Shown: positions 1 through 270 of the stretch, in pieces
Layout of the letters: the number at the start of each line of letters is the position of its first letter
How positions within the stretch are numbered: the first letter of the stretch is position 1
DNA from: Bacillota bacterium
Lineage (GTDB): Bacteria > Bacillota_I > Bacilli_A > RF39 > UBA660
Assembly (NCBI GenBank): GCA_015059425.1
Contig: SVAM01000012.1
Span: 1-39,862 of the forward strand
Reading direction: 5' to 3'
Length of the DNA: 39,862 nt
Notes under the pieces: model-generated
The model's input: only the letters and a program-made list of their open reading frames with translations
Told to the model about the DNA's origin: nothing
The model's database searches: none
Made by a program: the position numbers and the translations under genes

Positions 1-82
1 ATATTAAAGTTACACTAACGCAAAATAATATTATTCCAATTAATAATATTTTCTTTTTACTTCTTATAGTTTCAAATTTCAT
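1..82 (-). CDS. Secreted or membrane-anchored protein, N-terminal fragment (cut by window edge)
   Basis: An ATG at 82 opens a frame that runs off the left edge, giving 27 residues. A basic start (MKFETIRSKKK) is followed by a hydrophobic run (ILLIGIILFCVSVTLI), which is the layout of a signal peptide or N-terminal membrane anchor. A GAGGTGA ribosome binding site lies at 87-93. The ATG overlaps the TGA stop of the upstream leader ORF (79-213) as ATGA, which suggests translational coupling. The mature protein lies outside the window, so no function can be given. Confidence 0.6.
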   Translation of the reverse strand, partial: MKFETIRSKKKILLIGIILFCVSVTLI

Positions 83-213
83 TTTGTCACCTCTACTACT
101 AAAGGTAACTTAAAGTTGTTTTGCCTAGTTAGTTCTGGGCTTATTAACTTAAATAACCCCCCCCCAGAAGCATACTCAGCAACTGTTGGGAAGTTCTTAC
201 ATATTTTTTTCAT
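79..213 (-). CDS. Leader ORF, 44 aa, with an in-frame G9 tract
   Basis: ATG at 213, stop TGA at 79-81, preceded by AGGAAGGAAG at 221-230 at a good distance. A near-consensus promoter lies just upstream (242-270). The peptide begins MKKICKNFPTVAEYASGGG and ends LPLVVEVTK; I recognise no family. The three glycines are coded by nine consecutive G (C9 on the plus strand, 157-165), exceptional in this AT-rich DNA. With eight or ten G the frame meets a stop within five codons; with nine it reads to the ATGA overlap with the next gene. It uses codons rare around here (GGG, AGG). It could be a phase-variable leader, a regulatory leader peptide, or a structured RNA that happens to be open. Confidence 0.5.
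   Translation of the reverse strand: MKKICKNFPTVAEYASGGGLFKLISPELTRQNNFKLPLVVEVTK
133..169 (-). promoter_or_regulatory. Hairpin enclosing the G9 tract in a leader
   Basis: TTCTGGG at 133-139 and CCCAGAA at 163-169 are perfect 7-base complements. TTATT/AATAA can pair inside them. The G9 tract forms part of one arm, so a change in tract length would shift the pairing register as well as the reading frame. There is no T-run after it, so it is not a simple terminator. I could not match it to a known riboswitch class. Confidence 0.4.
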
Positions 214-241
214 TTGCTAACTTCCTTCCTATGATAGTTAA

Positions 242-270
242 AATATACCATAAAATAAACTAATTGTCAA
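242..270 (-). promoter_or_regulatory. Sigma-A type promoter of the leader ORF and secreted-protein gene
   Basis: On the minus strand TTGACA (265-270), a 17-base spacer and TATATT (242-247). Predicted transcription start is near 235, just ahead of the AGGAAGG ribosome binding site of the 44-aa leader. Confidence 0.7.

Follow-up and report, generated by a model that had tools for sequence, protein, structure and literature searches.

The closest described relative of the locus reported here is pil1 of S. gallolyticus. At pil1 and pil3, GCAGA repeats in a leader open reading frame (ORF) decide whether the ribosome opens a terminator (PMC3894217). Both systems place a slippery repeat in a short leader ORF ahead of surface-protein genes, and in both the number of repeats sets the position of the stop relative to a hairpin. 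They differ in that our locus carries poly-G instead of GCAGA, a hairpin over a Shine-Dalgarno (SD) sequence without a T-run instead of a terminator, an ATGA overlap between leader and target, one single ON residue class and many copies in the genome.

Homopolymer phase variation in coding regions is described in Neisseria, Campylobacter and the pili of Bifidobacterium breve (PMC9187656). These switches share with ours poly-G slippage and surface or secreted products, but their tract lies in the frame of the protein itself, whereas here it lies in a separate upstream ORF. Homopolymers in promoter spacers, a tract of the same kind that is also present in this genus, act on transcription, while the leader type would act on translation of the target. 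The coupling component has its own precedent in E. coli iraD, whose translation is coupled to a short upstream ORF (PMC5574718). There, downstream translation depends on ribosomes on the upstream ORF, as we propose for our locus, but control is exerted by CsrA with no genetic switch, in contrast to the tract-length switch proposed below. A search restricted to open-licence papers, and hence a weak negative, returned no other case that joins coupling or a leader ORF with phase variation.

The stretch of DNA analysed (the window) is the entire contig C15, 39,862 nt at 25% GC, of an 18-contig, 1.15 Mb Bacillota genome (G000). An earlier sequence-only reading had described at its left edge a nine-G run within a 44-codon ORF that has its own promoter and ribosome binding site and ends in an ATGA overlap with a signal-peptide gene. 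Re-examination confirmed each of these elements:

Positions 265-270, minus strand: -35 hexamer TTGACA of the leader promoter (sequence scan).
Positions 242-247, minus strand: -10 hexamer TATATT of the leader promoter, with a TG extension and a 17-nt spacer (sequence scan).
Positions 224-230, minus strand: leader SD, AGGAAGG (read from the sequence).
Positions 79-213, minus strand: leader ORF of 44 codons, its TGA overlapping the target ATG as ATGA (ORF call and frame reading; seven tract-bearing copies of this genome and two cousins).
Positions 157-165, minus strand: nine-G tract, the proposed slippage site, with read-through when the number of G residues (n) is divisible by 3 (frame reading).
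Positions 2-82, minus strand: codons 1-27 of the target gene, with a signal-peptide-like N terminus; the remainder lies past the contig end (ORF call).

The leader promoter matches the consensus at 11 of 12 positions and is the top-scoring candidate in the region, and the leader SD is mostly accessible by prediction (unpaired probability 0.47-0.94). As for the truncated target, the ends of contigs C15, C11 and C10 carry exactly 127 identical bases, as expected when an assembly graph breaks at a repeat; contig C14, too, starts within this shared sequence. The target gene of the window therefore probably continues either as the 482-aa gene on C10 or as the gene that opens C14. No viral contigs were found, and an Rfam search of the window returned two tRNAs only, with no known riboswitch or leader family.

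Eight copies of the leader are present in the genome: seven with a tract and one, at the start of contig C10, that lacks the upstream half. Searching 291 genomes of the family gave two weak matches outside the genome itself and no others. Cousins of the leader occur one each in two uncultured Bacilli MAGs labelled 'Lapin', G019 (9 G) and G020 (10 G), and share, in the part after the tract, 46-53% DNA identity with the own copies.

This arrangement probably represents slipped-strand phase variation acting on translational coupling. The mechanism that we infer would link slippage within a population, through translation of the leader and opening of a hairpin, to protein output. Leader and target would be co-transcribed from the leader promoter, and a strong SD of its own would drive translation of the leader. 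The target SD would be shut in a stable hairpin, with the target silent unless a leader ribosome crosses this hairpin and stops at the ATGA, where the target start would be re-used or exposed. Replication slippage in the G tract would change n. Whenever n is divisible by 3 the ribosome would arrive (ON); at any other n it would stop at most five codons past the tract and thus some 60 nt or more short of the target start, leaving the hairpin shut (OFF). With one tract per paralogue, the population would display a mixed set of secreted proteins.

Three hairpins were considered in the leader region:

Positions 86-109, minus strand: hairpin H3 over the target SD, GTTACCTTTA (109-100) with TAGAGGTGAC (95-86), 10 pairs, -12.3 kcal/mol (predicted folds).
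Positions 189-225, minus strand: hairpin H1, GGAAGTT (225-219) with AACTTCC (195-189), overlapping the leader SD (complementarity in 9/9 copies).
Positions 121-182, minus strand: tentative hairpin H2 around the tract, TTCTGGG (169-163) with CCCAGAA (139-133) and a lower stem of TTGCT (182-178) with GGCAA (125-121) (hand-placed, with individual folds).

H3 is predicted in all seven own copies as ten pairs that include the SD, GTTACCTTTA pairing with TAGAGGTGAC (TGGAGGTGAC in one of them), at about -12 kcal/mol, a value that beats 99% of shuffles. Its counterpart in G019 and G020 is shorter (5 bp, CCTCT/AGAGG) and of unexceptional energy, equalled by a fraction of 0.11-0.15 of shuffles. Across the nine leader-bearing genes the predicted unpaired probability of the target SD is 0.00-0.09; six leaderless paralogues reach 0.53-0.96, and 17 window genes average 0.65. 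The target SD is thus predicted to be occluded by a hairpin only where a leader exists. Folding the RNA without the 5' arm of H3, to mimic its capture by a ribosome, partly frees the SD (0.30-0.88). We rejected a direct effect of tract length on access to either SD: the target SD is hidden at every n tested in the fold, and the leader SD shifts modestly. The sequence-only reading had also placed the tract in a hairpin arm. The complementary arms TTCTGGG and CCCAGAA do exist, but a consensus fold of the nine copies did not recover H2, the covariation term of that fold was almost nil (0.13), and the case for H2 is weaker than for H3. We consequently assign no role to H1 and H2.

The same hairpin could be read in the manner of pil1, as transcription attenuation in which the leader ribosome would act by preventing a terminator hairpin and not by exposing an SD. 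The logic is indeed shared, a repeat in a leader ORF followed by a hairpin (PMC3894217), yet H3 is followed by AAAATGAAATTT, with no T-run, and no terminator-like site is found in the leader region. The stem, moreover, contains the target SD, and in every copy the stop of the leader and the start of the target overlap. Attenuation is accordingly an unlikely explanation. Rho-dependent polarity may operate in the OFF state.

Translational coupling would make tract length decisive. The reading frames, the tract-length differences, the ATGA overlaps and the gene family can all be read directly from the DNA. The seven own copies carry tracts of 9, 6, 10, 10, GGGGAGGGG, 6 and 10, where GGGGAGGGG is an interrupted tract of 9. 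In these copies and both cousins, n divisible by 3 leads to the TGA of the ATGA, 25 codons beyond the tract, and in the same nine copies, from three species, every n not divisible by 3 gives a stop at most five codons after it. Four of the seven own copies accordingly read through and would be ON, and three do not and would be OFF. The frame outcome depends on length in 9/9 copies, and n differs among paralogues. In the window leader, nine G read through to the ATGA, eight stop 4 codons past the tract and ten stop 2 codons past it; re-reading the frames bore out the earlier statement that eight or ten G give a stop within five codons and nine give read-through. Premature stops of this kind in the remaining two frames would, taken alone, prove little, because they are not rare at 25% GC: we estimate a chance of about one in three per frame within five codons. 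The comparison is based on one genome per species and on assembled sequence, homopolymer lengths can be miscounted in metagenome assemblies, and the length differences between paralogues may be anciently fixed.

Poly-G is itself concentrated in the leaders. The 1.15 Mb genome contains four runs of at least 8 G, each of them of at least 9, and all lie within leader copies that together make up about 1 kb. A first-order Markov model predicts 0.67 runs of at least 8, and 0.11 of at least 9, G or C per 1.15 Mb. The clustering of poly-G in leaders exceeds chance, as judged from searches of the genome and the base composition of the window. Loss of MutS was rejected as the origin of the tracts: the genome encodes MutS and is not an obvious mutator.

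Polymerases or ribosomes can slip on long homopolymers, so that expression would be leaky whatever n is. Slippage in transcription, or frameshifting by the ribosome, could in this way set a constant ON fraction, with no genetic switch at all. The rate of slippage depends on tract length, and two G6 copies and the interrupted GGGGAGGGG copy keep an open frame. By the length dependence these three would be locked ON, and their open frames fit such alleles better than a slippery site that has to be maintained. Constant slippage is an unlikely explanation.

The part of the leader after the tract is exactly 78 nt long and always open in the nine copies from three species. The chance of this frame staying open is 0.12-0.34 per comparison by simulation, which is not tiny. 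The weight therefore lies on all comparisons taken together, on the constant length of 78 nt and on the ATGA overlap. That stop-start overlap, an arrangement characteristic of translational coupling, is present in all nine copies and in the genus-mate G029 discussed below. Two copies on contig C14, C14a and C14b, lost one base and gained one before the tract; the peptide is altered, with its N-terminal half replaced, while the frame and the DNA motif AAGAACTTCCCAACAG are kept. Across the seven own copies, the columns that vary number 7, 8 and 9 at the three codon positions, with no bias. Because this bias is lacking and compensating indels preserve the frame, it appears that ribosome passage matters and the peptide does not, the leader serving as a ribosome track. 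Its translation is judged from the SD, the kept frame and the compensating indels, and the position of the tract inside the ORF is clear.

That the leader encodes a functional small peptide, with the G tract merely a glycine run, is the least credible alternative: a glycine stretch and NNFK are common to the G019 cousin, but third codon positions show no excess of variation, the N-terminal half has been exchanged in two copies, 3/7 copies are out of frame and the leader of G029 is unrelated.

The G029 genome contains a second design of the same kind. Its leaders differ in sequence (e.g. MEQIYVWGG...NILTEVVNI) and precede proteins that start MKFVTLKSFDKKK and belong to the same family by profile. 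The tracts range from G9 to G11; one residue class of n leads to the ATGA, and in the remaining classes a stop comes 1-4 codons past the tract. Here the hairpin has 11-12 bp and extends up to the target AUG, with the SD unpaired in its loop. Four of the readable coupled copies are ON and three OFF. Given that the two leader types have no sequence similarity, we infer that they arose independently. At another G029 locus (L141, around 3627 of G029:C18), leader and target share one frame and the coupling region is apparently deleted, so that a coupling switch has apparently been turned into a coding-frame switch. In other G029 copies the coding start itself contains the tract.

These results strengthen the earlier proposal of slippage acting on translational coupling, since n varies, the frame is kept, the target SD is predicted to be buried where a leader is present and G029 repeats the design. 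A tract fixed at nine, or a leader not conserved in frame, would have spoken against it, and neither is what we observe among paralogues and species. The multigene family and the hairpin over the target SD were not part of the earlier reading.

Tracts of at least 8 G occur in 25 of 36 genomes of the genus. Of the 121 tracts that were analysed, 52 separate a -35 from a -10 hexamer, 23 fall within coding frames and 12 belong to coupled leaders; a thirteenth leader entry, L075, is a putative automatic call and is left out of this count. Promoter-type tracts precede members of the target family in G015 and G022, and coding-type tracts accompany it in G003, G020 and G021; selection for switching of this family is the simplest reading. 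Spacer tracts of the form TTGAC..-Gn-TATGnTATnnT precede secreted proteins in G015, G017, G019, G020, G022 and others (e.g. L081:1203-1212), and look like a repertoire of transcriptional poly-G switches that spans the genus. Promoter-type tracts also stand before proteins that by eye resemble RNA polymerase sigma factors (e.g. MTDDLFVDELPRAF..., MHNDLLGIKLPKAL...) at L091 (G015), L151 (G032) and L154 (G034); a switched sigma factor, if true, would mean a switched regulon. One further G032 locus, L153 (G032:C114:3373-3512), is a G-rich, low-complexity contig end with a 23-G run, probably an artefact of assembly or sequencing.

The six complete targets have 450-696 aa, and five of them are 36-50% identical to the first. 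They combine two kinds of N-terminal signal region with a common C-terminal part (FAGFYWRIIRINGNGS..., GLITADEVAYAGG, RPVINL), and from their N termini they are probably secreted or surface-displayed. Sequence searches of the targets against Pfam, NCBIfam and PDB gave nothing above cut-off, and a single-sequence structure model of one C-terminal part reached a pLDDT of 34 and was unusable. The family comprises roughly twenty loci in G000, most of them leaderless; members lie on contigs C6, C11, C12, C14 and C16, some adjacent (C16:11964-16797).

Taken together, we consider it probable that a duplicated cassette, evolved at least twice in the genus, uses a homopolymer in a dispensable leader to switch the coupling of a secreted family gene by gene, while relatives use promoter spacers or coding starts for the same family. 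Gene callers would overlook such leaders. If true, the coupling of a throw-away leader to a hidden ribosome site would be a further site for homopolymer switches, besides promoters and coding frames, and one family under three switch designs would offer a natural experiment on switch evolution. Small-genome, gut-type Bacilli without a cultured model would then possess a reserve of secreted proteins, each switching independently.
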